Assembly: GCA_025930755.1 (NCBI GenBank)
Contig: JAICOJ010000031.1
Span: forward strand, 1 to 32,299
Direction of reading: 5' to 3'
Length of the DNA: 32,299 nt
DNA from: Gemmatimonadaceae bacterium
GTDB taxonomy: Bacteria; Gemmatimonadota; Gemmatimonadetes; Gemmatimonadales; Gemmatimonadaceae
Shown: positions 3,306-32,299 of the stretch, piece after piece
Layout of the letters: each line of letters begins with the position of its first letter
Numbering within the stretch: position 1 is the first letter of the stretch
Program-made: the position numbers and the translations under genes
The notes under the pieces: generated by a model
The model's database searches: none
Told to the model about the DNA's origin: nothing
Seen by the model: the letters and a program-made list of their open reading frames with translations, nothing else

Positions 3306-3410
3306 GACCTGACGGCATTACCACGGAGGCACAGAGGACGGCGACCTGCAATACACTTGCAGGTCGCCGTCCTCTGTGCCTCTGTGCCTCTGTGGCAGTG
3401 CCGTTAGGTC
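3306..3410. terminator. Long perfect hairpin between convergent genes (GGCACAGAG units)
   Basis: The core arms at 3326-3351 and 3357-3382 are complementary over 26 consecutive base pairs around a 5-nt loop. The outer flanks (GACCTGACGGCATTACC against the complement of GGCAGTGCCGTTAGGTC) continue the symmetry with few mismatches. The right arm carries an extra 8-nt unit (TGTGCCTC) that the left lacks, so the arms grow by unit duplication. It sits between the convergent stops of the TonB receptor and glnB and would fold as a bidirectional terminator, but there is no U tract. Confidence 0.75.
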
Positions 3411-5515: not shown

Positions 5516-5608
5516 GTAGATGGATCGTCGTCGTGGGGGGTGGCCGTCCGTTGCGGCCAGTCTGCTGGTGACCATGGGAACCCTCGAGAGTGAAGTGACC
5601 ACAAACGA

Positions 5609-5643
5609 CTCGCCCCCGCGTCGGTAGTGAGCGCGGGGGCGAG
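5609..5643 (-). promoter_or_regulatory. Perfect 12-bp GC-rich stem-loop in the mgsA leader
   Basis: CTCGCCCCCGCG (5609-5620) pairs perfectly with 5632-5643 around an 11-nt loop. It lies between the 28-codon reading frame ending at 5670 and the mgsA starts. On the minus strand it is followed by only a TTT, so it is a weak terminator at most. It could be an attenuator for mgsA-amtB-glnB or the terminator of a short upstream transcript. Confidence 0.5.
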
Positions 5644-5669
5644 AACTGCGAACGACCAACGTCGACCCA

Positions 5670-5756
5670 TTATCCGCGCGTGAGTGATCCCGTCCCCAGG
5701 AGATTGAGGACGAAGAAGACGTACTGCGGCTTGGTGCTCGTCGAGACGCTGGTCAC
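5670..5756 (-). CDS. Possible 28-residue leader peptide or gene remnant
   Basis: A GTG-initiated frame of 28 codons plus TAA encodes a Ser/Thr-rich start followed by a hydrophobic stretch (YVFFVLNLLG). It begins about where transcription would start from the candidate promoter at 5763-5791, so a leaderless start is conceivable. The next downstream elements are the 12-bp hairpin and mgsA. I do not recognise the peptide. It may equally be the tail of a decayed gene, since an in-frame stop lies just two codons upstream of the GTG. Confidence 0.3.
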   Translation of the reverse strand: MTSVSTSTKPQYVFFVLNLLGTGSLTRG

Positions 5757-5762
5757 GAATGC

Positions 5763-5791
5763 AAGTTAGGTTTGACCAGGTGGGGGGTCAA
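5763..5791 (-). promoter_or_regulatory. Candidate promoter for the mgsA-amtB-glnB operon
   Basis: On the minus strand TTGACC (5791-5786) is separated by 17 nt from TAACTT (5768-5763). The -35 is good, the -10 is weak. The start point would fall near 5756, giving about 240 nt of leader before mgsA. It lies in the 5757-5857 gap after the beta-propeller lipoprotein gene; I see nothing else ordered in that gap. Confidence 0.35.
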
Positions 5792-5857
5792 GCGAAGCGT
5801 GTGTCATGAGTGTAACGAGCATCACAGTCGAGCAGGGTGGTGGCGACACCGCCGCGG

Positions 5858-6895: not shown

Positions 6896-6981
6896 CGGAG
6901 GGCGTGGGACTCGAACCCACAAGGGCGGTGAAGCCCGCCGGTTTTCAAGACCGGTGCCTTACCAGTTAGGTCTAGCCCTCC
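6896..6981 (-). tRNA. tRNA-Ser (anticodon UGA)
   Basis: On the minus strand GGAGGGC (6981-6975) pairs with GCCCTCC (6903-6897), with discriminator G at 6896. The anticodon stem CCGGT/ACCGG encloses loop CTTGAAA, anticodon TGA, reading UCA and wobble serine codons. The variable arm GGGC...GCCC and T arm GTGGG-TTCGAGT-CCCAC are intact. CCA is not encoded. It stands between the DUF2723 gene and the propeller lipoprotein, all on the minus strand. Its D arm contains one copy of the recurring CCTAAC word. Confidence 0.96.
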
Positions 6982-7030
6982 ACCGGGAAATCTAGCGGCG
7001 TCTGGCGCCTTTTGGGAGGTCCGCCATCGG

Positions 7031-9250
7031 TCACCGACGCGTCGTATCGGTGCCTAACGGTATGGCGGGCGCCGTATCCCCACGCGGCGGCGCCGGCGCC
7101 TGCTGCGCGAAGAGATCACCCAGCCCCGTCGCCCGCGCGATCCCTTCCGCGGTCACCATCACCTGCTCGGCAGCGGCGCGATTGCCGGCCAGCATCTCCG
7201 CCTCGTACAGGTTGGCCGCCGTGGAGATGTACAGGTACGGAATACCAACCGAGGCGCGGTCGACCCAGCTGCCGCGCTCGATGATCGACTCCGGGGCCTT
7301 GAAGACATCGGTCCAGAGCGCTCGCGACCGCGGCAGGTCGAACCATCCTTCGCCTTGCAGCATCACCGTGTCGCGATCCGGACTCGGGATGGCCGGTAGC
7401 AGCTTGCGCGCGAGCCCCTGCTGAATGAGGTACGGATCGAGGCCTAACGAACGGCCGTAACTGCCCGACGTGCGTGCGAGGTAGATCGGGCGCTCCGGAA
7501 ACGCGTCGGCGATCATCCGCAGGACGAGCACGCTGGCCTTGTCGAGCACCTGCGGCTGCACCGTCGCGACGAGGGTTCCCTTCCGGAAGATCTGCGGCTC
7601 CCGGATCTCGACGTACGGCGGCAGCGCATCCGCCTGCGCGATCGTCAGGCTGATCGGCGGACCGCTTGGCTTCGTCCACTGCTTCCCGCGGTAGATCGCC
7701 GGCCCGCTGTCCATGTCGTACTCGAACACCGGGCGCCGAATCATCTGGCGGACGTACCAGTCGGTGTTGAGCAGCGACGTGTTGGCGACGACGACGTCCT
7801 TCCGGATGCCTTCCACCTCCTGCGCGTACCAGAGCGGGAAGGTGTCGTTGTCGCCCACGGTGACGAGCACCCCGTACGGCTCCACGGAGTTGAGCATGTC
7901 GTGCGCGAAGTCGGCCGTATCGGTGTGACCGGCGCGGGAGGCCGCCTTCCAGTTCGTGAAGAGCGGGATGAGCGCGATTGCCAGTATCGGGCTGGCCAGC
8001 AGCCATGAGCGCCGGCGTGGAAGCTCCACGGTGTCGCGCCCGACCTTGATTCGCTCCGACCCGATGAGGTGCGCCAGCGCTTCCCACAGATACACGATGC
8101 CGAGCGCCGCCCACACGCCCCATGCGCTGAACGAGATGAGATAGAAGTAGTCTCGATCGCGCACCTCGCTGAGCTCGGTCGGCTGGTTCTGCGAGAATCC
8201 GTACTTGAAGTTCAGGTAGTAGATCAGCAGCACCGTCAGCGTCAGCATGAAGGTGCCGAAGTACCAGAAGGAGCGGCGATCGCGCTTCCAGTGCACCCAC
8301 GCGCCGAGCAGTCCGAGCCCCATGAACAGGACGCCGAGTACCTGCTGCGCGACGCGCCAGTTGCCGTCGAGGTCGCGGAGCCACTGCCAGCGGAAATACA
8401 GCCAGTACATCCCCACTTGTCCGCCGATCGGCGCCTGGCGCTCGATCACGCTCGGCTTCCCGTACTGCTTGCGGTTGAAGTTGTCCCAGAACGCCTGCCA
8501 CGTCGTCGGCTCGCCCTCGTTGATCGGCGGATTGAATGCCGAGCGGATGGGCTGCGTGAGGAAGGGTGTCATTCCCAGGAGCAGGGCACCGGCGCACAGG
8601 GCGAGCAGCTTCCAGTCGAGCAGGAGCTGGGGACGGCGCATGATGACGGCAACCGCCACGGCGGGCGCGGCGAGGAAGCCCATCATGTGGTTGGCGTACC
8701 CCAGCCCGAGGATGTACGCGATGAGAATGAGGAGCCGGTTGGCGCCCGGCGCGTCGGGGTCGTCGGACCAGCGGACGGTGAGCCACGAAATCACCGCCAG
8801 GCCGAGCAGTGAGATCGTGTAGACCTTCTCGTTGACGACCGACTGGTTCCAGACCGTGAACGCGGTCGCGCCGATGAGGGCGGCAGCGACTCCGGCAGCG
8901 ATGCGCTCCCACCGATCGGCGAGCCAGCTCACGAGCACGCGCTCGGTGATCAGGAACCACATGCCCGCCGAGATTGCGCTCGTGAGCGCCGCGAGAATGT
9001 TGATCCGCTGTGCGACTGTCGGGGCGATCGGCAGGATGGCGAAGAATCGCCCAAGGATGACGAACAGCGGATTGCCGGGCGGATGCGGCAGCCCCATCAC
9101 GTAGGCGGCAGCGATGTACTCGCTGGCGTCCCACATCGCCGTCGAGGGGGAGAGCGTGATGAGATATAGAAGCATCACCGCGCCCGCCGTTGCGGCGGCG
9201 GCAATATAGGACGGACGGTAGTCGAGCTCGGCGCGCGTGATCGAAGCCAT
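7031..9250 (-). CDS. DUF2723-family polytopic membrane protein (GT-C glycosyltransferase-like)
   Basis: A 739-residue inner-membrane protein with many hydrophobic helices in its first about 470 residues and a soluble C-terminal part. The first loop reads MWDASEYIAAAYVMGLPHPPGNPLF, the conserved DUF2723 hallmark; an acidic pair after the first helix is typical of GT-C enzymes that use polyprenyl-phosphate sugars. Catalysis is therefore a family-level inference and the acceptor is unknown. I start at ATG 9250 (MASITRAELDY), because the upstream extension to 9319 is a proline-alanine low-complexity tail translated from the repeat at 9283-9338. No clear Shine-Dalgarno is visible. Confidence 0.85.
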   Translation of the reverse strand: MASITRAELDYRPSYIAAAATAGAVMLLYLITLSPSTAMWDASEYIAAAYVMGLPHPPGNPLFVILGRFFAILPIAPTVAQRINILAALTSAISAGMWFLITERVLVSWLADRWERIAAGVAAALIGATAFTVWNQSVVNEKVYTISLLGLAVISWLTVRWSDDPDAPGANRLLILIAYILGLGYANHMMGFLAAPAVAVAVIMRRPQLLLDWKLLALCAGALLLGMTPFLTQPIRSAFNPPINEGEPTTWQAFWDNFNRKQYGKPSVIERQAPIGGQVGMYWLYFRWQWLRDLDGNWRVAQQVLGVLFMGLGLLGAWVHWKRDRRSFWYFGTFMLTLTVLLIYYLNFKYGFSQNQPTELSEVRDRDYFYLISFSAWGVWAALGIVYLWEALAHLIGSERIKVGRDTVELPRRRSWLLASPILAIALIPLFTNWKAASRAGHTDTADFAHDMLNSVEPYGVLVTVGDNDTFPLWYAQEVEGIRKDVVVANTSLLNTDWYVRQMIRRPVFEYDMDSGPAIYRGKQWTKPSGPPISLTIAQADALPPYVEIREPQIFRKGTLVATVQPQVLDKASVLVLRMIADAFPERPIYLARTSGSYGRSLGLDPYLIQQGLARKLLPAIPSPDRDTVMLQGEGWFDLPRSRALWTDVFKAPESIIERGSWVDRASVGIPYLYISTAANLYEAEMLAGNRAAAEQVMVTAEGIARATGLGDLFAQQAPAPPRGDTAPAIPLGTDTTRR

Positions 9251-9282
9251 GGGTCGGGTTGGAGGTCGGGGAAAGATAGTGA

Positions 9283-9338
9283 CAGGCGCTACAGGCGCTA
9301 AGGGCGCCAGAGGCGCCAAGCGCCTCTAGCGCCCTTAG
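9283..9338. repeat. Short inverted repeat between divergent genes (GGCGCTA units)
   Basis: CAGGCGCTA is repeated in tandem at 9283-9300. From 9298 CTAAGGGCGC and AGAGGCGC are mirrored by GCGCCTCT and GCGCCCTTAG up to 9338, giving a nearly perfect hairpin around CAA. It lies between the divergent starts of the DUF2723 gene (9250) and the isomerase-like gene (9363), so it would sit in promoter DNA or leaders rather than at gene ends. Confidence 0.6.
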
Positions 9339-9362
9339 CTCCTTGGCTCCACCTTCTCGCCC

Positions 9363-10210: not shown

Positions 10211-10326
10211 GTCAGGGTCGTCAGGGTCCTCGGGGTCCTCAGGGTCCTCGAGGTGCGAGGTGCTCAGGGTTTCGCACCCCGAGGACCTCGAGGACCCCGA
10301 GGACCCTGAGGACCCTGAGGACCCTC
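10211..10326. repeat. Inverted repeat with arms of tandem GGTCCTCAG 9-mers
   Basis: The left arm (about 10211-10257) is a run of GGTCCTCAG variants. The right arm (about 10272-10326) is the complementary GGACCCTGA run with about one unit more. The innermost part closes on AGGTGCG/CGCACC. It lies between two co-oriented genes, 15 nt before the GMC start, and would form a very stable hairpin in the message. The same unit family makes the element at 17465-17580. Confidence 0.8.
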
Positions 10327-12740: not shown

Positions 12741-13984
12741 GCGGTGAGCGTCTGGGGGTGGGGTTCATCGGAAGTGGGTTCAACACGAAGTTCCATCTCC
12801 GGGGATGGACCACGGTGCGCGATGGCGATGTGCGCGGCATCTGGAGCCCGAATGCGAAGAACGCCGCGTCGGCCGCGAAATTCGCGCGGGAGCTCGACAT
12901 CGGGGACGCCAAGCCCTACAAGACGATCACCGACATGGTGGCGGATCCCGCCATCGATGCGATCTGGCTCTCGGGCCCGAACCACGCGCGGCTCGAGAAC
13001 GTCGAAGAGATCGTCACCGCCGTCGAGAAGGGAAAGGGAACGCTCAAGGGCATCGCGTGCGAGAAGCCGCTGGCGCGGAACGTCGCCGAGGCGAAGAAGG
13101 TCATGGAGCTCGTGAAGCGCATCGGCGTTCCGACGGGCTATCTCGAGAACCAGTTCTTCGCTCCGCAGGTGGAGACCGGTCACCAGCTCATCTGGGCCCG
13201 TGGGGCGGCGACGACGGGACGGCCCTACCTCGCGCGCGCGGCCGAGGAGCACAGTGGGCCGCACGCTCCCTGGTTCTGGCGTGGGACGTTGCAGGGTGGC
13301 GGCGTGCTCAACGACATGATGTGCCACTCCGCGCTCGTCGTGCGCCATCTGCTCACGAAGCCGGGCGCGCCGCGCAACTCCGTGAAGCCGGTGCGGGTGA
13401 CCGGGCACATCGCCAGCCTCAAGTGGAGCCGGCCCGAGTACGCCAAGCTTCTGAAGGCGCGCATGGGGAAGGAAGTCGATTACACGTCGGCTCCGTCGGA
13501 GGATTTCGCTGCGGTCCACATTGAGTTCGAGACGGACGACGGCCTGACCGTGATTGGCGAGGCGACGACCTCGTGGAGCTTCGTCGGCGCCGGGCTCCGC
13601 CTCTCGGCGGAGCTGCTCGGCCCCGAGTACTCGATGCAATGGAACTCGCTCGACGCGGGGCTCAGGCTCTTCTTCAGCCGCGAGGTCCGCGGCAAGGAGG
13701 GCGAGGACCTGGTCGAGAAGCAGAACGCCGAGATGGGGTTGATGCCAGTCGTCGCGAACGAGGCGGCCGCGTACGGTTACGAGGCGGAGGACCGGCACTT
13801 TGTGCGTGTCTTCCTGGGGAAGGAGAAGCCGCGCCTGACGTTCGAGGACGGGCTCGAGGTGGTGAAGATCCTGATGACGGCGTACGCGAGTGCGGAGGCA
13901 GGGAAGACGCTGCAGTTTCCGCCGAAGGATCTTGATAGCTTCGTGCCGAAAGTCGCGAAGGGAGAATGGAAGGGCGGGGGCTAG
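12737..13984 (+). CDS. Gfo/Idh/MocA-family oxidoreductase (cytoplasmic form)
   Basis: A 415-residue NAD(P)-dependent oxidoreductase. The N-terminal Rossmann motif is VGFIGSGFNTKFH; the conserved lysine lies in CEKPLARN; the C-terminal catalytic pattern GGGVLNDMMCHS supplies the Asp/His pair. It lacks a signal peptide, unlike its counterpart at 14116-15450. Within the cluster it would plausibly reduce or interconvert a keto-sugar made by the GMC enzyme; the substrate is not readable. It is the last gene of the plus-strand operon, and its TAG stop lies in the first bases of the cruciform element. Confidence 0.9.
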   Translation: MSGERLGVGFIGSGFNTKFHLRGWTTVRDGDVRGIWSPNAKNAASAAKFARELDIGDAKPYKTITDMVADPAIDAIWLSGPNHARLENVEEIVTAVEKGKGTLKGIACEKPLARNVAEAKKVMELVKRIGVPTGYLENQFFAPQVETGHQLIWARGAATTGRPYLARAAEEHSGPHAPWFWRGTLQGGGVLNDMMCHSALVVRHLLTKPGAPRNSVKPVRVTGHIASLKWSRPEYAKLLKARMGKEVDYTSAPSEDFAAVHIEFETDDGLTVIGEATTSWSFVGAGLRLSAELLGPEYSMQWNSLDAGLRLFFSREVRGKEGEDLVEKQNAEMGLMPVVANEAAAYGYEAEDRHFVRVFLGKEKPRLTFEDGLEVVKILMTAYASAEAGKTLQFPPKDLDSFVPKVAKGEWKGGG

Positions 13985-14112
13985 GGATCAGGAGTCAGGG
14001 ATCAGGGAAGGAAAGGCGCGGCAGCTATGCTGCCGCGCTCATCTGATGAGGGCCGCACGCGCGAAGCGCGGCGGCCCCTTTCCTTCCCTGATCCCTGACT
14101 CCTGACCCCTAG
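13981..14112. repeat. Cruciform element: 36-bp outer arms around two hairpins and a palindrome
   Basis: Outer arms 13981-14016 and 14077-14112 match at 35 of 36 positions as inverted copies and are built from GATCAGGAGTCAGGG units. Inside are hairpin A (14016-14038, 10-bp stem, loop TAT), the 13-nt near-palindrome CTCATCTGATGAG (14038-14050), and hairpin B (14051-14076, GGCCGC/GCGGCC with a GAA loop). It exactly fills the gap between two convergent operons and overlaps the TAG stop of the plus-strand gene, so it would serve as a bidirectional terminator. Its inner plan is shared with 27719-27866. Confidence 0.88.
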
Positions 14113-14115
14113 CTC

Positions 14116-15450
14116 CTACAACGTCCACCCCTTCCGATACTCCGGCTTCCAATAGTGCTCCGGAATCCCCGTCGTCTTGAGATTCCCCGTCGCCGGGTCG
14201 ACATCGATCGGCTTCCCGGCGCGGACGGCGAAATTGCCTAACAACACCATTTGCGTCAGCGGGCCGGCGTGCTCGGGGAAGTTCGACCCCGCGGCGGGAC
14301 CGCCCTTGCATGCCGCGATCCACTCGGCGTACACGCCGGCGACGCGCGGATACTTTTGCGGCGGCGGTGACGCGGTGAGGTCCTTGTGGCGCGCGGGGTC
14401 GAGGTGGATCAGTCGGTCGCCATACGCGTCGGCCACGAGCGTCCCGTCGCTCCCGATCCACATCTGGCTGCCGACATCGTGGTAGGGCCACGGCTGTTCC
14501 GGCGGGAGCGCCTCGGGACGCGCCGCCGACAGCTCGCCGTCGCGCCAGACGACGCGCACCGGCGGCCGCGCGCCACGCGCGGGAAACTCGTACACGATGC
14601 GCGAGACGCGCGGCGCCGTCTCCGGGAAGTTGCGCGTCGTCTCGGCCTCGATGCGCGAGGGGAAGCCAAGATTGAGCGCCCAGTACGCCGCGTCCATCGC
14701 GTGCGGCGCGATGTCGCCTAACGCCCCGGTGCCGAAGTCCCACCATCCCCGCCACCGGAAGGGAGCGTATGCCGGGTGGTACGGACGGTCGGCGGCCGGG
14801 CCCAGCCAGAGGTCCCAGTCGAGCGTCGGCGGCGGAGCGTGCAGCTCCGTCGGCCGCTCGATGGCCTGAGGCCAGATGGGGCGATTCGTCCAGTAGTGGA
14901 TCTCGCGCACTGTGCCAATGGCGCCCGCCTCGACCCATTCGCGGAGGTTGCGTGTGCCGACACCCGCGTGGCCCTGGTTCCCCATCTGCGTGGCGACCTT
15001 GTAGCGTCGCGCCGCGTCCATGAGCGTGCGTACCTCGTGGATCGTGCGGGCCAGCGGCTTCTGCACGTACACGTGCTTGCCCATGCGCATCGCCGCCATC
15101 GCGATGACCGTGTGCGTGTGGTCGGGCGTTGATACGGTGACCGCGTCGATGCCCTTGCCCTCGCGCTCGAGCATCTGCCGGAAGTCGCGATACTTCTTCG
15201 CGGCCGGGAAACGCGCGTAGCTCTGCTCGGCCATGCGGTCGTCGACGTCGCACATCGCGACGATGTTTTCGCCACTCACGCCGTTGACATCGGAGCGTCC
15301 CATCCCGCCGACACCCACGCAGGCGACGTTCAGCGTGTCACTCGGAGCGCGATAGCCGGGTCCGCCAAGCACATGACGCGGGACGATGGTGAATGCTGCG
15401 CTGGCTTTCGCGACGTCAGCGACGAAGTCGCGTCGAGAGATGTCACTCAT
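14116..15450 (-). CDS. Tat-exported Gfo/Idh/MocA-family oxidoreductase
   Basis: A 444-residue dehydrogenase-fold protein with a Tat signal at residues 5-30 (SRRDFVADVAKASAAF). The Rossmann motif VGVGGMGRSD and the QKPLART variant of the EKP motif are present, followed by GNQGHAG and WWDFGTGALGDIAPHAMD, standard for exported family members. Export with a nicotinamide cofactor, as in other Tat-type members of this family, fits a self-contained redox or hydrolytic cycle on glycosides rather than NADH production. It follows the MFS gene with a 1-nt gap, so it ends the minus-strand operon DUF1080-MFS-Gfo/Idh. Confidence 0.9.
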   Translation of the reverse strand: MSDISRRDFVADVAKASAAFTIVPRHVLGGPGYRAPSDTLNVACVGVGGMGRSDVNGVSGENIVAMCDVDDRMAEQSYARFPAAKKYRDFRQMLEREGKGIDAVTVSTPDHTHTVIAMAAMRMGKHVYVQKPLARTIHEVRTLMDAARRYKVATQMGNQGHAGVGTRNLREWVEAGAIGTVREIHYWTNRPIWPQAIERPTELHAPPPTLDWDLWLGPAADRPYHPAYAPFRWRGWWDFGTGALGDIAPHAMDAAYWALNLGFPSRIEAETTRNFPETAPRVSRIVYEFPARGARPPVRVVWRDGELSAARPEALPPEQPWPYHDVGSQMWIGSDGTLVADAYGDRLIHLDPARHKDLTASPPPQKYPRVAGVYAEWIAACKGGPAAGSNFPEHAGPLTQMVLLGNFAVRAGKPIDVDPATGNLKTTGIPEHYWKPEYRKGWTL

Positions 15451-17445: not shown

Positions 17446-17464
17446 GGCGAATCTCCGAATGAAA

Positions 17465-17580
17465 GGGTCCTCAGGGTCCTCAGGGTCCTCTAGGTCCTCT
17501 GGGCCCAAGGTCGTGCGTAGGGTTCTTTCACCTCGAGGACCCTGAGGACCCTGAGGACCCCGAGGACCCTGAGGACACTC
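17465..17580. repeat. Inverted repeat with arms of GGTCCTCAG 9-mers (second copy)
   Basis: The left arm 17465-17510 carries GGTCCTCAG-type units, the centre is a 20-nt unpaired stretch, and the right arm 17531-17580 carries GGACCCTGA-type units, including a GGACCCCGA variant as seen at 10211-10326. It lies between the purH stop at 17582 and the DUF1080 start at 17445, both on the minus strand. A hairpin this long would separate purine-gene transcripts from the sugar operon. Confidence 0.8.
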
Positions 17581-27683: not shown

Positions 27684-27718
27684 GGGTGAAAAAAAGTCTA
27701 AGCGCAGGGTTGGAGTAA

Positions 27719-27866
27719 GGGGTCAGGAATCAGGAGTCAGGGGTCAGGGGTGGAAACGGCGCCGCGGCTTCGCCGCAGGCGCCTCATCAGATGAGCAAAC
27801 GGCCGCGCTGTGCGCGGCCGTTTGCCTTTCCACCCCTGACCCGTGATCCCTGATCCCTGACTCCTA
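27719..27866. repeat. Cruciform element, second copy of the two-hairpin plan
   Basis: Outer arms (about 27719-27756 and 27827-27866) are imperfect inverted copies made of GTCAGGAATCAGGAGTCAGG-type units joined to GGTGGAAA/TTTCCACC. Inside are hairpin A (GGCGCCGCGGC/GCCGCAGGCGCC, 27759-27783), the near-palindrome CTCATCAGATGAG (27783-27795) and hairpin B (27795-27825, 14-bp perfect stem, loop TGT). It lies between co-oriented valS and the BON gene, unlike the convergent copy at 13981. Confidence 0.85.
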
Positions 27867-28774: not shown

Positions 28775-28927
28775 ATGACCTCACCTGAGCCCTCTCGTCC
28801 GGAGCGAGGATACGCCGGCCGCGCGGTGATCTGGCTCATCGCCGCCGTGCTGCTGCTCATCGGACTTTACCTGTACTTCCGATTCGCGCGCGAGACGCCG
28901 TCGGTCATCCACGGGATCTCTTCGTGA
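28775..28927 (+). CDS. 50-residue single-pass membrane protein upstream of thrS
   Basis: A short frame with a charged, Pro-rich N-terminus, one hydrophobic helix (AVIWLIAAVLLLIGLYLYF) and a short tail. Its TGA overlaps the thrS GTG start by 4 nt, which suggests translational coupling. No homologue is recognised. Its coding status rests on the clean membrane helix and the overlap; no Shine-Dalgarno is visible before the ATG. Confidence 0.6.
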   Translation: MTSPEPSRPERGYAGRAVIWLIAAVLLLIGLYLYFRFARETPSVIHGISS

Positions 28928-30906
28928 TTCAAAGCGCCACCGACATGTTGACGCTGAAGCTGCCCGACGGCTCGACTCGCGAGGTCGAGCATGGCGCCCT
29001 GCCTCGCGACGTTGTTGCCTCGATCGGGGCCGGCCTCCTTCGGGCCGCCATCGCCGTCGAGGTGAACGGCCACGTTCAGGATCTCGTGACGCCCATTCGC
29101 GAGAGCGGCTCGTTCACGGTGCTGACCGAGCGGGACAGGCCCGCCCTCGACGTGCTCCGCCATTCCGCCGCGCACATTCTCGCGACCGCGGTGCGGCGCC
29201 TCCGCCCGGACGCGAAGATCGGGTTTGGTCCGGCCATCGAGGACGGGTTCTACTACGATTTCGAGGTGACGCGACCCTTTACGCCCGACGATGTCGCGGT
29301 CTTCGAGGACGAGATGCGCAAGGTCGTCGCGGAGAAGCTTCCCTTCGTGCGCGAGGAAGTGGACAAGCCCGCGGCGCGTCGCCGCTTCACCGATGATCCG
29401 CTGAAGCTCGAGCGCCTGGAAGAGCTCGGGTCGGATGAAGTGATCTCGGTGTACACCGACGGCCCGTTCGTCGATCTCTGTCGCGGCCCGCACGTGCCCG
29501 ACACGTCGTACGTGAAGCATTTCAAGCTCTTGTCGACCGCGGCCGCGTACTGGCGCGGCGACGAGAAGCGGCAGACGCTGCAGCGCATCTATGGCACTGC
29601 TTTCTTCAAGAAGGACGAGCTCGAGACGCACCTGCATCGGCTCGAAGAGGCGAAGCGGCGGGATCACCGGGTGATCGGCAAGCAGCTCGATCTCTTCTCG
29701 ATTCAGGACATCGTCGGCCCGGGCCTGGTCTTCTGGCATCCGCGAGGCGCCAGGATCAAGTGGCTGCTCTCGCGCGCCGTCGAGGACGACAACATCGCCA
29801 ACGGCTACGAGCTCGTGTACACGCCGAACATCACGCGCGAGGAGCTGTTTCGCGTCTCCGGCCACCTCCCGCTCTATGAATCGAATCAGTATCCGCCAAT
29901 GGCGGCCGGGGCGGGCGAGGCGGACGACGTGCGGTATCGCGTGAAGCCGATGAATTGCCCGATGCACGCGCTCGTCTACAAGTCGCAGCCGCGGAGTTAC
30001 CGGGATTTGCCGCTGCGGCTGTCGGAGGTGGCGAACGTCTATCGCAACGAGAAATCCGGCGTGCTCCACGGCCTGCTGCGCGTGCGCGGCCTGTCGATGG
30101 ACGACGCCCACATCTTCTGCACCCTCGACCAGGCGGAGGACGAGATCTTCCTCTGCCTGGATCAGGTGGAGCGGCTGATTCGCCAGACGTTCGGCTTCGA
30201 GCTGGATTTCGAGGTCTCGACGAGACCCCCGGAAAAGCTCGGCGACGACGCGGCCTGGGATCGCGCCGAGGATACGCTCAAGCGCGCCCTCGAGCGCAAA
30301 CAGATTCCTTACCGTATCGATGCTGGCGGGGGCGCCTTCTACGGGCCAAAGATTGACGTGAAGTTCAGGGACGCGATTGGCCGTCTCTGGCAGGGCCCCA
30401 CCATCCAGCTCGATTTCCAGCTCCCGGAGCGGTTCGAGCTGGAGTACGCGGGCGCGGACAACAAGCCGCATCGACCGGTGATGATCCACCGTGCGATCTA
30501 CGGAACGCTGGAGCGGTTCATCGGCGCGCTGATCGAGCATCTCGCCGGCGCGTTTCCCACCTGGCTGTCGCCGGAACAGGTCCGCGTCATCTCGATCACC
30601 GATGCGCAGCGCGACGCGGCGGCCGACGCCGCTCGCCGGATGACGGAGGCGGGGATTCGCGTACACCTCGATGATCGTTCCGAGACGTTGAAGTACAAGA
30701 TCGCGGAAGGCATGCGGCTCAAGGTTCCGTATCTCGCGGTGGTCGGGAAGCGAGAGGCGGAGCAGGGCACGATCGCGGTGAGCGTCCGCGGCGCGGGGGA
30801 GAAGCAGCATCCGGTGCCCGTGCCGGTGGATGAGTTCATCGCGAGGGTGCGCGAGGAGATTTCTACTCGCGCCCTAGAGCTGCGTGCCGCGGCTTCTCCC
30901 GCGTGA
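28924..30906 (+). CDS. thrS: Threonyl-tRNA synthetase
   Basis: A 660-residue class II synthetase charging tRNA-Thr. Domains in order: TGS (MLTLKLPDGSTREVEHG), editing domain with intact HSAAH and CRGPHVPDT, class II core with zinc ligands in KPMNCPMHALVY, the RNEKSGVLHGLLRVRG arginine motif, and GGAFYGPKIDV, then an anticodon-binding domain ending near VPVDEFIARV. The GTG at 28924 overlaps the preceding stop; an ATG at 28945 (MLTLKLPDGS) would be the compact alternative. I prefer GTG because of the overlap, weakly. Confidence 0.97.
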   Translation: MIQSATDMLTLKLPDGSTREVEHGALPRDVVASIGAGLLRAAIAVEVNGHVQDLVTPIRESGSFTVLTERDRPALDVLRHSAAHILATAVRRLRPDAKIGFGPAIEDGFYYDFEVTRPFTPDDVAVFEDEMRKVVAEKLPFVREEVDKPAARRRFTDDPLKLERLEELGSDEVISVYTDGPFVDLCRGPHVPDTSYVKHFKLLSTAAAYWRGDEKRQTLQRIYGTAFFKKDELETHLHRLEEAKRRDHRVIGKQLDLFSIQDIVGPGLVFWHPRGARIKWLLSRAVEDDNIANGYELVYTPNITREELFRVSGHLPLYESNQYPPMAAGAGEADDVRYRVKPMNCPMHALVYKSQPRSYRDLPLRLSEVANVYRNEKSGVLHGLLRVRGLSMDDAHIFCTLDQAEDEIFLCLDQVERLIRQTFGFELDFEVSTRPPEKLGDDAAWDRAEDTLKRALERKQIPYRIDAGGGAFYGPKIDVKFRDAIGRLWQGPTIQLDFQLPERFELEYAGADNKPHRPVMIHRAIYGTLERFIGALIEHLAGAFPTWLSPEQVRVISITDAQRDAAADAARRMTEAGIRVHLDDRSETLKYKIAEGMRLKVPYLAVVGKREAEQGTIAVSVRGAGEKQHPVPVPVDEFIARVREEISTRALELRAAASPA

Positions 30907-30908
30907 GC

Positions 30909-31162
30909 AAGGAACCGCAGATGGCCGCAGGCGGCCGCAGAAACTGCAAACGCGTTAGCCAGAGATGAACACGGATGGGAGCACGGATCGGCTCCGAGCC
31001 CGAACTAGCTCCGCGTAGCTGTTAACAAAACAACGCTGGGAACTTCCTCTACCGTGGCACCCTCCACCCACAGAGAAGTATCGGTGTTGCTTCCGTGCAC
31101 ATCCGTGGTAAATGCTTTTGATGGCGACGTTACAGCGTGTCTGCGGCCTTCTGCGGTTCCTC
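30909..31162. repeat. Nested inverted repeats of two different unit families
   Basis: The outer pair GGAACCGCAGATGGCCGCAG (30911-30930) and its inverted copy (31141-31160) differ at one of 20 positions. Inside, a second family (ATGAACACGGATGGGAGCACGG at 30965-30986) is mirrored by CCGTGCACATCCGTGGTAAAT (31093-31113). The left outer arm has an added GGCCGCAG unit (30932-30941). The central about 105 nt have no repeat I can see. It separates thrS from the peptidase gene, both on the plus strand. Confidence 0.75.
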
Positions 31163-31208
31163 GTCCTTGCACCCCAACGCACGTCCAAAGAGTCTTTCAG
31201 GAGGTTTC

Positions 31209-32299
31209 ATGAGCAGGTCCTCGTTCTCAATGCGCGCGCGCACTCTCGCATGGACGCTCGCGCTGGCACTTCCCCTCGCGACAACCGTCGCGCAAACGCC
31301 GGCGCCGCCTCTCGCGAAGCCGATCGCCAAAGTCGACACCATTCACGGCGACATCCTCGTCGACAACTACTTCTGGCTGCGCGATCGCAAGAATCCCGAC
31401 GTCATCAAGTACCTCGAGGCGGAGAACGCCTACACGGACCAGATGACGAAGCATCTCGCTCCGCTCCAGGAGCAGCTGTACAAGGAGATGCTCGGTCGCA
31501 TCAAGCAGACGGATCTCTCCGTCCCCGTGCGCCGCGATTCTTTCTACTACTACACGCGTACCGAGGAGGGGAAGCAGTATCAGATCTACGCGCGCAAGAA
31601 GGGATCGCTCGACGCGCCCGAGGAAGTGCTGCTCGATGAGAACGTGATGGCGGCAGGGAAAGGCTACTTCCGCCTCGGCGGCACCCAGGTGAGCCCCGAC
31701 CACCGGCTGTTCGCGTTTCTCGTCGACACCGCCGGATCGGAGCACTTCACGCTCGTCGTGAAGAACATTGCGCGGGGCACGATGCTGCCCGATCAGATCC
31801 ACGACGTCCATTTCGGCATTCAGTGGGCGAACGACAATCGGACGCTGTTCTACACCCGCACCGACTCCGCCCAGCGCCCCGATCGCATTTTCCGCCACAC
31901 CCTCGGCATGCCGACGTCGAGCGATGTGATGGTGCACCATCAGCCGGACGTGCTGTTCGGCCTCGGCATTACCAAGACCAAGGACGATCGCTTTCTGCTC
32001 ATTGGGGACGAAAGCTTCACACAGTCCACCTGGTACTACATCGATGCGTACCGTCCGGGCGAATCGCCGAAGGTCATCTCGGCGGGACGACCGAACGTGG
32101 AGTACTCGGTGGAGCATCACGGCACCCATTTCTACATCCGTACCAACGACAACGCGACGAACTTCAGGCTCGTGCGCGCGCCGGACCGCGACCCGAATCC
32201 CGCGAACTGGACGACGGTGGTCCCGCACCGCGACTCGGTGCTGCTCGCCGACTTCGACGTCTTCCGGAATCACCTCGTGTTGATGGAGCGTGAAAAGGC
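31209..32299 (+). CDS. Prolyl-oligopeptidase (S9A)-family peptidase, N-terminal part
   Basis: A partial gene: 363 codons are present and the frame stays open to the window edge. The ATG follows AGGAGG at 31199-31204 with a 4-nt spacer. A signal peptide (MSRSSFSMRARTLAWTLALALPLATTVAQ) points to export. The mature start KVDTIHGDILVDNYFWLRDRKNPDVIKYLEAEN is the classic entry to oligopeptidase B/prolyl oligopeptidase, followed by beta-propeller blades (YYYTRTEEGKQYQIYARKKG, FRLGGTQVSPDHRLFAFLVD). The Ser/Asp/His catalytic domain lies beyond the window, so activity cannot be judged. Confidence 0.92.
   Translation, partial: MSRSSFSMRARTLAWTLALALPLATTVAQTPAPPLAKPIAKVDTIHGDILVDNYFWLRDRKNPDVIKYLEAENAYTDQMTKHLAPLQEQLYKEMLGRIKQTDLSVPVRRDSFYYYTRTEEGKQYQIYARKKGSLDAPEEVLLDENVMAAGKGYFRLGGTQVSPDHRLFAFLVDTAGSEHFTLVVKNIARGTMLPDQIHDVHFGIQWANDNRTLFYTRTDSAQRPDRIFRHTLGMPTSSDVMVHHQPDVLFGLGITKTKDDRFLLIGDESFTQSTWYYIDAYRPGESPKVISAGRPNVEYSVEHHGTHFYIRTNDNATNFRLVRAPDRDPNPANWTTVVPHRDSVLLADFDVFRNHLVLMEREK

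Follow-up and report, generated by a model that had tools for sequence, protein, structure and literature searches.

Intergenic palindromes made of short tandem units are known yet unexplained. Among the described systems, the tandem arrays of the heptamers GGGAATC in Xanthomonas and GGGGA(C/T)T in Nostoc come closest to the element presented here. These arrays are mostly intergenic, are found near ORF ends, are under-represented between divergent ORFs and, in Xanthomonas, are frequently paired in inverted orientation (70 cases in Xcc and 75 in Xac; PMC4692102). In the parts of that paper that deal with them, the arrays have one unit type per genome, a single ring and quadruplex-forming units, and nesting is not described. 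REP, BIME and REPIN sequences are extragenic palindromes and mosaics of palindromic motifs located downstream of genes, features that our element shares with them as they are presented in the relevant parts of PMC3733652 (see also PMC2817692 and PMC3116915). The same parts of PMC3733652 report REP dimers inserted inside longer palindromes (GTAG-15 in A. variabilis and CGTC-1 in H. neapolitanus), which is a precedent for nesting. Hairpin clusters and terminators place hairpins soon after stop codons, and according to a section heading poly A/U trails are not necessary (PMC8355165); compared with intrinsic terminators and hairpin clusters as presented there, our element is far longer, is repeated between loci and is devoid of a U-tract. 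Finally, the survey of perfect inverted repeats in PMC13155455 covers spacers of up to eight bases and, judged by these limits, would therefore miss palindromes of the present form as a whole.

The element lies in a spacer in the genome of a Gemmatimonadaceae bacterium related to Gemmatirosa, and most likely represents a nested variant of the palindromes that tandem units form between genes in Xanthomonas and Nostoc. In cyanobacteria, the STRR heptamers (short tandemly repeated repetitive sequences) are tandem units of 7 nt as well, like the units in the dialects of two genomes of our set (G007 and G018), and are not known to be arranged as nested palindromes. Heptanucleotides of Calothrix are mentioned in the parts of PMC4692102 concerned. 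As in the Xanthomonas and Nostoc arrays described there, the element consists of inverted short tandem units, is intergenic, lies near ORF ends and is rare between divergent genes. In contrast to those arrays, two or three rings, each of its own unit, are arranged concentrically around a centre that copies share, the two linkers are unlike each other, the interior varies between orthologous sites, and the units CCGCAGATGG and ACACGGATGG, upon reading, lack the runs of at least three G residues of a quadruplex. Concentric rings with interiors differing at orthologous sites are not described in the parts of PMC4692102 and PMC3733652 that treat these palindromes. A literature text search for the unit sequences returned nothing relevant, with one 13-mer matching only papers on kidney development, viral diagnostics and, by title, a herpesvirus. 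A search combining Gemmatimonadetes with repeat terms found nothing, in a search on repeats in Gemmatirosa or Gemmatimonas neither name occurred among the matches listed, and the string 'Gemmatimon' is absent from the main text of PMC4692102, PMC2267715, PMC13155455 and PMC3733652.

The window, i.e. the whole stretch of 32,299 nucleotides that was analysed, is contig C57 of a genome of 4.27 Mb in 275 contigs (the own genome hereafter). The palindrome occupies most of the spacer between two genes on the + strand (Table 1). The upstream ORF we take to be thrS, encoding threonyl-tRNA synthetase, a name that follows the earlier note. The downstream ORF presumably encodes an S9 prolyl oligopeptidase-like protein; its start at the ATG at 31209 was picked by us, the ORF tool giving 31137, and homologues were found in 53 of the 60 genomes compared, the own genome counted.

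Table 1. Features of the nested palindrome and its flanking genes (positions in the window)
Feature	Position	Strand	Basis or remark
thrS, threonyl-tRNA synthetase gene (presumed)	28924..30906	+	ORF; stop 2 bases 5' of outer arm
Outer (ring 2) left arm CAAGGAACCGCAGATGGCCGCAG	30908..30930	+	Sequence, inverted-repeat search
Decamer units CCGCAGATGG, CCGCAGGCGG, CCGCAGAAAC	30915-30944	+	TRF: period 10, 30915-30941
Left linker AAACTGCAAACGCGTTAGCC...	30941..30968	+	Like AACTGCAACG linkers of other copies, by eye
Inner (ring 3) left arm	30969..30988	+	ACACGGATGG 30969-30978; second unit CACGGAT 30982-30988
Central module CTCCGCGTAGCTGTTAACAAAACAACGCTGGGAACTTCCTCTAC	31009..31052	+	Common to other copies, either orientation
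Inner (ring 3) right arm TCCGTGCACATCCGTGGTA	31092..31110	+	Exact complement CATCCGTG 31100-31107
Right linker AATGCTTTTGATGGCGACGTTACAGCGTGT	31111..31140	+	Sequence
Outer (ring 2) right arm CTGCGGCCTTCTGCGGTTCCTCG	31141..31163	+	Sequence, inverted-repeat search
S9 prolyl oligopeptidase-like gene (presumed)	31209..32297	+	ORF; extends past window end

The earlier note described an outer inverted pair that encloses an inner one, and this nested palindrome is indeed there. The outer arms, AGGAACCGCAGATGGCCGCAG at 30910-30930 and CTGCGGCCTTCTGCGGTTCCT at 31141-31161, are 21 nt long and 95% complementary, and can be extended to 30908-30930/31141-31163 with two mismatches. The longest inverted match in the spacer, allowing at most one mismatch, was 21 nt, as against a mean of 10.0 and a maximum of 14 in 200 dinucleotide shuffles. 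The DNA fold of 30905-31166 had a z of -4.8, with none of 200 shuffles equally stable, and the RNA fold of the spacer 30907-31208 a z of -5.3, with none of 100 equally stable. The inner pair exists as well, although its exact arm is 8 nt and not 10 (ACACGGATGG versus CATCCGTG). An 8-nt pair is by itself unremarkable; it is credible because, of the 15 copies that outer arms bound in the own genome, five carry exact matches to CACGGAT (5' half) and ATCCGTG (3' half), while shuffled copies carried the pair in both halves in none of 200 rounds.

These copies came from a reading of 19 loci in the own genome, where the pattern CCGCAGATNRCCGCAGA had 45 matches with at most two mismatches. Fifteen copies of 130-298 bp were bounded on both sides and the other four loci, lacking such a copy, were excluded from this set. 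All 15 start with AACCGC or GACCGC and finish with GCGGTT. Besides the five with both inner halves exact, a sixth has the inner pair with mismatches only and nine are without a complete pair, two of these having the unit on one side. The tandem inner unit ACACGGATGNNNACACGGAT (at most two mismatches) occurs at only two places in the own genome, the thrS spacer and contig C136 (control 0). The core of the central module, GTAGCTGTTAACAAAACAACGCTGGGAACTTC at 31015-31046, is present again in other copies in both orientations, and the centre aligned with a score of at least 12, a threshold that we set against a random-sequence 99th percentile of 10.0, in nine of the 15 copies, which split five to four between the two orientations. 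Given that unrelated loci share linkers and centre, in both orientations, descent or copying connects these copies, and they did not arise separately site by site. In one outer-family copy (L037 1234-1519, contig C16) a palindrome of GAGG dialect, ACCGCAGAGG..CCTCTGCGTCCTCTGCGG, constitutes a third kind of nest; the corresponding site in the congener G001 is without it.

Among the 60 genomes (own included), the outer-unit pattern was matched in seven and was numerous in three, with 28 matches in the own genome, 13 in G001 and 118 in a genome that is Gemmatirosa kalamazoonensis by its identity to plasmid NZ_CP007129.1. In the latter, where a pattern for ring 3 gave 160 matches and its reversed control none, the same design is clearer. 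By eye, ring 2 (TTGAACCGCAGAGGGCCGCAGAGG) is followed by a linker, ring 3 (TTGAACCACAGAGGACACGGAGGACACAGAGG) and a loop, and then the order runs back, some copies having an extra outermost ring (CTCACGCGGAGGCGCGGAG). The units differ from those of the own genome by the same shift in both rings, GATGG becoming GAGG. The outer and inner units (CCGCAGATGG/ACACGGATGG in the own genome, CCGCAGAGG/ACACGGAGG in G. kalamazoonensis) appear to be related dialects rather than two unrelated families. We read 69 unit clusters in this genome. Ring 3 was matched in 57 of the 70 stretches among the matches listed, and several of the other 13 show it by eye. Single-ring forms occur (ring 2 only at L211:227 and L255, ring 3 only at L233), and ring 2 can also enclose another type of inner hairpin (L222, L244) or flank a third type on one side (L274).

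The linkers of G. kalamazoonensis fall into three types; we set these up by eye from the very data to which they were then applied, with scoring by alignment. Both linkers could be classified in 36 of the 57 elements among the matches listed, the other 21 having an unclassified linker. They were unlike in 33 and alike in three of these 36, where permutation gave a mean of 13.3 alike and 0 of 100,000 permutations reached three or fewer. With A/B in 15 and B/A in six elements among the matches listed, the elements are therefore polar and present in both orientations, which speaks for the copying of whole composites. BIME-like mosaics alternate palindromic motifs with linkers drawn from a small set; here the linkers are of three types, mostly unlike within an element, and the arrangement is concentric, not head-to-tail. 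When the 3' arms were permuted, arm likeness within versus between elements had a z of -2.0 for ring 3 and +2.1 for ring 2 (117 of 5000 permutations as high), so that arm-to-arm correction within an element was rejected for ring 3 and reaches only z 2.1 for ring 2. Because the arms of one element are barely more alike than those of others, no compensatory-change argument for selection of the hairpin can be made, and the covariation that mirrored variants in the own genome (contigs C24, C136 and C160) had suggested by eye was dropped upon this result. A 36-bp segment of a Halomarina plasmid (NZ_CP100459.1:90382-90417) matches a G. kalamazoonensis stretch inside the L260 element at 97%.

The earlier note proposed a comparison of the spacer downstream of thrS in relatives. 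Among the S9 loci of 29 relatives, ThrRS lies directly upstream in two, G001 and G007 (ThrRS C-terminal part). In G001 the outer arms align with those of the own genome and the interior does not, the ACACGGATGG pair being absent (RNA fold z -4.6). In G007, which belongs to another genus, the spacer holds a nested palindrome of different units, with GTGACTA outside and GTGCTGC plus a TCCTAGATGGATCTAGGA hairpin inside (DNA fold z -5.8); the GTGACTA pattern has 383 matches in that genome (control 5) and at most three in any other of the 60. An inverted repeat with arms of at least 18 nt and at most two mismatches was present in seven of 27 S9 loci of other genera and in none of the remaining 20; the phenomenon is therefore not universal in the order.

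To widen the comparison with G001, the flanks of 18 own elements were used as queries, of which 14 could be placed (L003, L007, L020 and L030 were unplaced; L004, L005, L027 and L031 were placed on one side only). At the 11 sites with both flanks aligned, thrS included, G001 had outer arms with another interior at two (thrS and L008), the CACGGAT type only at two, another palindrome family at two (L002, z -8.6; L028, z -6.3), no palindrome by eye at four (L011, L024, L035, L037) and an unclassified sequence at one (L016, z +0.4). The two inner-type sites, L292 (orthologous to L006) and L296 (orthologous to L033), have CACGGAT-type palindromes without outer arms; their folds reach only z -2.3 each and their assignment rests on the CACGGAT/ATCCGTG units. 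L006 itself has both outer and inner rings. L008 has outer ring and centre where its G001 orthologue L297 (z -5.1) has outer ring, inner ring and centre. Among the one-sided sites, L005 (z -7.9) and L027 (z -10.8) have other palindromes in G001 and L031 a weaker one (z -2.6). Between the own genome and G001, we found no clear-cut pair of sites where one species has an undisturbed outer-only loop and the other has that loop with an insert added. In a single case, that of L008 1505-1655 and L297, the central module is inverted between orthologues.

The nest is thus modular: outer ring, inner ring and centre occur together in one order and also apart, and the interiors at orthologous sites differ. 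The modular part of the suggestion that one element had inserted within, or been copied around, another is thereby borne out, as is the separability of the two families. The idea that nesting provides relative ages is not, given that the pairs L008/L297 and L006/L292 do not differ in the same way, with the direction unpolarised by an outgroup. Because the differences between sites point in more than one direction, and the rings resemble related dialects, no relative age can be assigned, and dating by nesting was rejected. Across 40 elements of G. kalamazoonensis the arms of ring 3 had a mean identity of 0.93 and those of ring 2 of 0.74 (ring 3 better in 27, worse in ten), which would fit a younger inner ring, although the pattern mis-cuts some ring-2 arms and no date was rested on it.

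Considering these data, our main reading, to which we assign a probability of around one half, is that the element represents one copy of an interspersed, modular, non-coding family of concentric palindromes, whose modules insert or are exchanged and which forms a hairpin at the transcript 3' end. A hairpin module would insert in, or be exchanged within, the loop of an existing hairpin, or be copied around it, presumably since landing in a hairpin between genes does no harm. Transcribed along with thrS, the element might fold into a long hairpin at the 3' end, which would dampen read-through or shield the end of the message, a role that position and fold suggest. Such a role would explain the placement at gene 3' ends and the scarcity between divergent genes in G. 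kalamazoonensis. Weighing against our main reading are the negative outcomes of the searches for a PF01797 enzyme in G001 and G. kalamazoonensis, for direct repeats at the ends and for a U-tract (see below), the lack of a clear-cut pair of sites and of covarying arms, the mostly tandem setting of the own-genome sites, the 20 S9 loci of other genera devoid of an inverted repeat and the by-eye definition of the linker types.

That the element is a mobile miniature element of the MITE or REPIN kind, moved by a transposase in trans and nested by transposons landing in transposons, we consider rather unlikely. Like MITEs, it has terminal inverted repeats (around 21 nt), a length between 100 and 300 bp, hence within the 100-500 bp by which MITEs are recognized, and a non-coding, dispersed character; interior sequence is common to copies in both orientations, and four orthologous sites in G001 are, by eye, without the element. 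Against this stand ends that are tandem-unit arrays of variable unit number, and the lack of any excess of shared flank words or direct repeats indicative of a target site duplication (15 own copies and 33 of G. kalamazoonensis), with the proviso that the true ends may lie elsewhere. A search with PF01797 (Y1/RAYT) gave a single match in the own genome (C64:10760-11086) and none in G001 (81% complete), G. kalamazoonensis, G006 and G010, so that no cognate transposase of this type was found for two of the three genomes where the element is numerous; for the same reason a RAYT/REPIN origin is unlikely. The element is also much larger than REPs and REPINs (130-298 versus 20-40 bp), has arms of tandem 9-10 nt units, and the GTAG or CGTC tag on a 20-40 nt palindrome is absent at the ends of the 15 own copies.

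The surrounding gene orientation bears on a further alternative. Strands were called on the basis of GC phase, and for the window this caller gave the correct strand in 135 of the 136 pieces used as a test. The G. kalamazoonensis clusters with a clear frame on both sides (55 of 67, among the matches listed) were convergent in 26, tandem in 27 and divergent in two cases; for all 67, including 12 with a weak frame signal, the numbers were 26, 34 and seven. Assuming a circular replicon, on which there are as many convergent as divergent gene pairs, 26 versus 2 indicates a bias towards gene 3' ends (p 3e-6; 26 versus 7, p 0.001). The 19 sites of the own genome were 17 tandem, two divergent and none convergent. 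We folded eight non-divergent stretches of the window, with spacer limits that we drew from the ORFs. Six of them had z values between -5.3 and -14.0, the other two being 5560-5857 (z -2.4) and 6935-7040 (z -0.4, with part of a tRNA gene included); two divergent stretches had z values of -1.1 and +0.5, and 24 coding pieces a mean of -0.1. An array of tandem 9-nt units at 9282-9343, with a 24-nt inverted repeat (9293-9343), lies at a third, divergent junction and is an exception to the 3'-end rule.

This bias, the strong folding of most non-divergent stretches and the presence in three genomes of a palindrome downstream of thrS, different in sequence in each, all favour functional 3' hairpins (terminators or RNA-end barriers) selected in place, the sequence drifting and being rewritten by slippage and template switching without mobility. 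We nevertheless regard this explanation as unlikely: unrelated loci have linkers, loops and centres in common, which slippage at each site cannot give, the arms do not covary, and four of the 11 resolved congeneric sites have no palindrome by eye. An intrinsic terminator in the usual sense was rejected, as no stem-loop with U-tract was called in 30800-31300, and so was a known RNA, since Rfam gave no match at E<=1 in 30890-31180 (at the gathering cut-off, the whole window yielded two tRNAs).

One obligate composite, in which outer and inner arms always go together, agrees with the fixed order of outer ring, inner ring and centre wherever both rings were seen; it is nevertheless highly improbable, considering the outer arms without complete inner pair in nine of 15 own copies and at thrS in G001, the inner type without outer arms at two G001 sites, and the different hairpins inside ring 2 in L222, L244 and L274. 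The constant co-occurrence that the earlier note named as the mark of such a composite is thus not what we find. Chance similarity within a GC-rich spacer, to which at most the 8 nt exact inner pair of the thrS copy would testify, is practically inconceivable in view of the outer arm length relative to the shuffles and of reversed-pattern controls that stay below the real patterns (CCGCAGATNRCCGCAGA, 13 versus 45; outer unit, 0 versus 28 in the own genome and 0 versus 118 in G. kalamazoonensis).

Beyond the modular family of our main reading, it is tempting, if still tentative, to think of an unexplained process in the Gemmatimonadales that writes and rewrites concentric palindromes from genome-specific units of 7-10 nt at gene 3' ends. 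The spacer would stay a hairpin while species come to differ in their unit family, rings become nested or swapped and linkers are kept unlike. For each of the five unit patterns that we followed, the genomes with abundant matches numbered between one and three out of 60. Related unit vocabulary, in the form of CCGCAGAG-type palindromes, was found in a Bacteroidales MAG and a Methanocella MAG, and the process or its units may cross phyla. Concentric copies with exchangeable interiors, together with dialects that diverge between congeners (133 versus 2 matches for the 9-nt pattern below), constitute a natural series for the birth, nesting, movement and loss of hairpins, and could also reveal whether the cell uses palindromes at transcript ends.

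Several other palindromes were observed in the window. Those at 10212-10324 and 17464-17576 are single-ring palindromes of 9-nt units, TCAGGGTCC/GGACCCTGA, whose pattern has 133 matches in the own genome, two in the congener, two in G016 and none in the other 57 of 60. Those at 13977-14116 and 27712-27860 are nested, with an outer ring of TCAGGGA-type heptamers around two inner hairpins that are GC-rich and have TCATCTGATGA/TCATCAGATGA between them; the TCAGGGA-type pattern has 92 matches in the own genome, 15 in the congener, three in G003, one in G037 and none in the other 56, and its reversed control, GGACTAGGGACTAGGGACTAG, matched 28 times in G018, four times in G029 and once each in G021 and G053. 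A nested hairpin at 3319-3395, with ACCACGGAGGCACAGAGG of the G. kalamazoonensis dialect outside and GGCGACCTGCAA/TTGCAGGTCGCC inside, sits in a spacer between convergent genes (z -10.5).

Further dialects occur outside the window. The heptamer GGGACTA has 53 matches in G018 and at most four in any other of the 60 genomes. Near the S9 gene of G020, another genus, inverted arms of 49 nt (at most two mismatches) contain GAGTTGA-like units (L087, 1104-1383). In the Bacteroidales MAG CAIQUS, palindromes of ACCGCAGAGGGCCGCAGAG units lie within a longer element (L107, L123, L127, L150, L163, L165, L166 and L174) that in several copies has GAGGGCACTCCGA-like inverted ends; many of these matches are around 200 bases or less from the start of the sequence piece, which may correspond to contig starts, i.e. 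assembly breaks. Archaeal palindromes with GGCCGCAGAGACCGCAGAGG-type units were observed at two loci (L139 and L164) of the Methanocella MAG.
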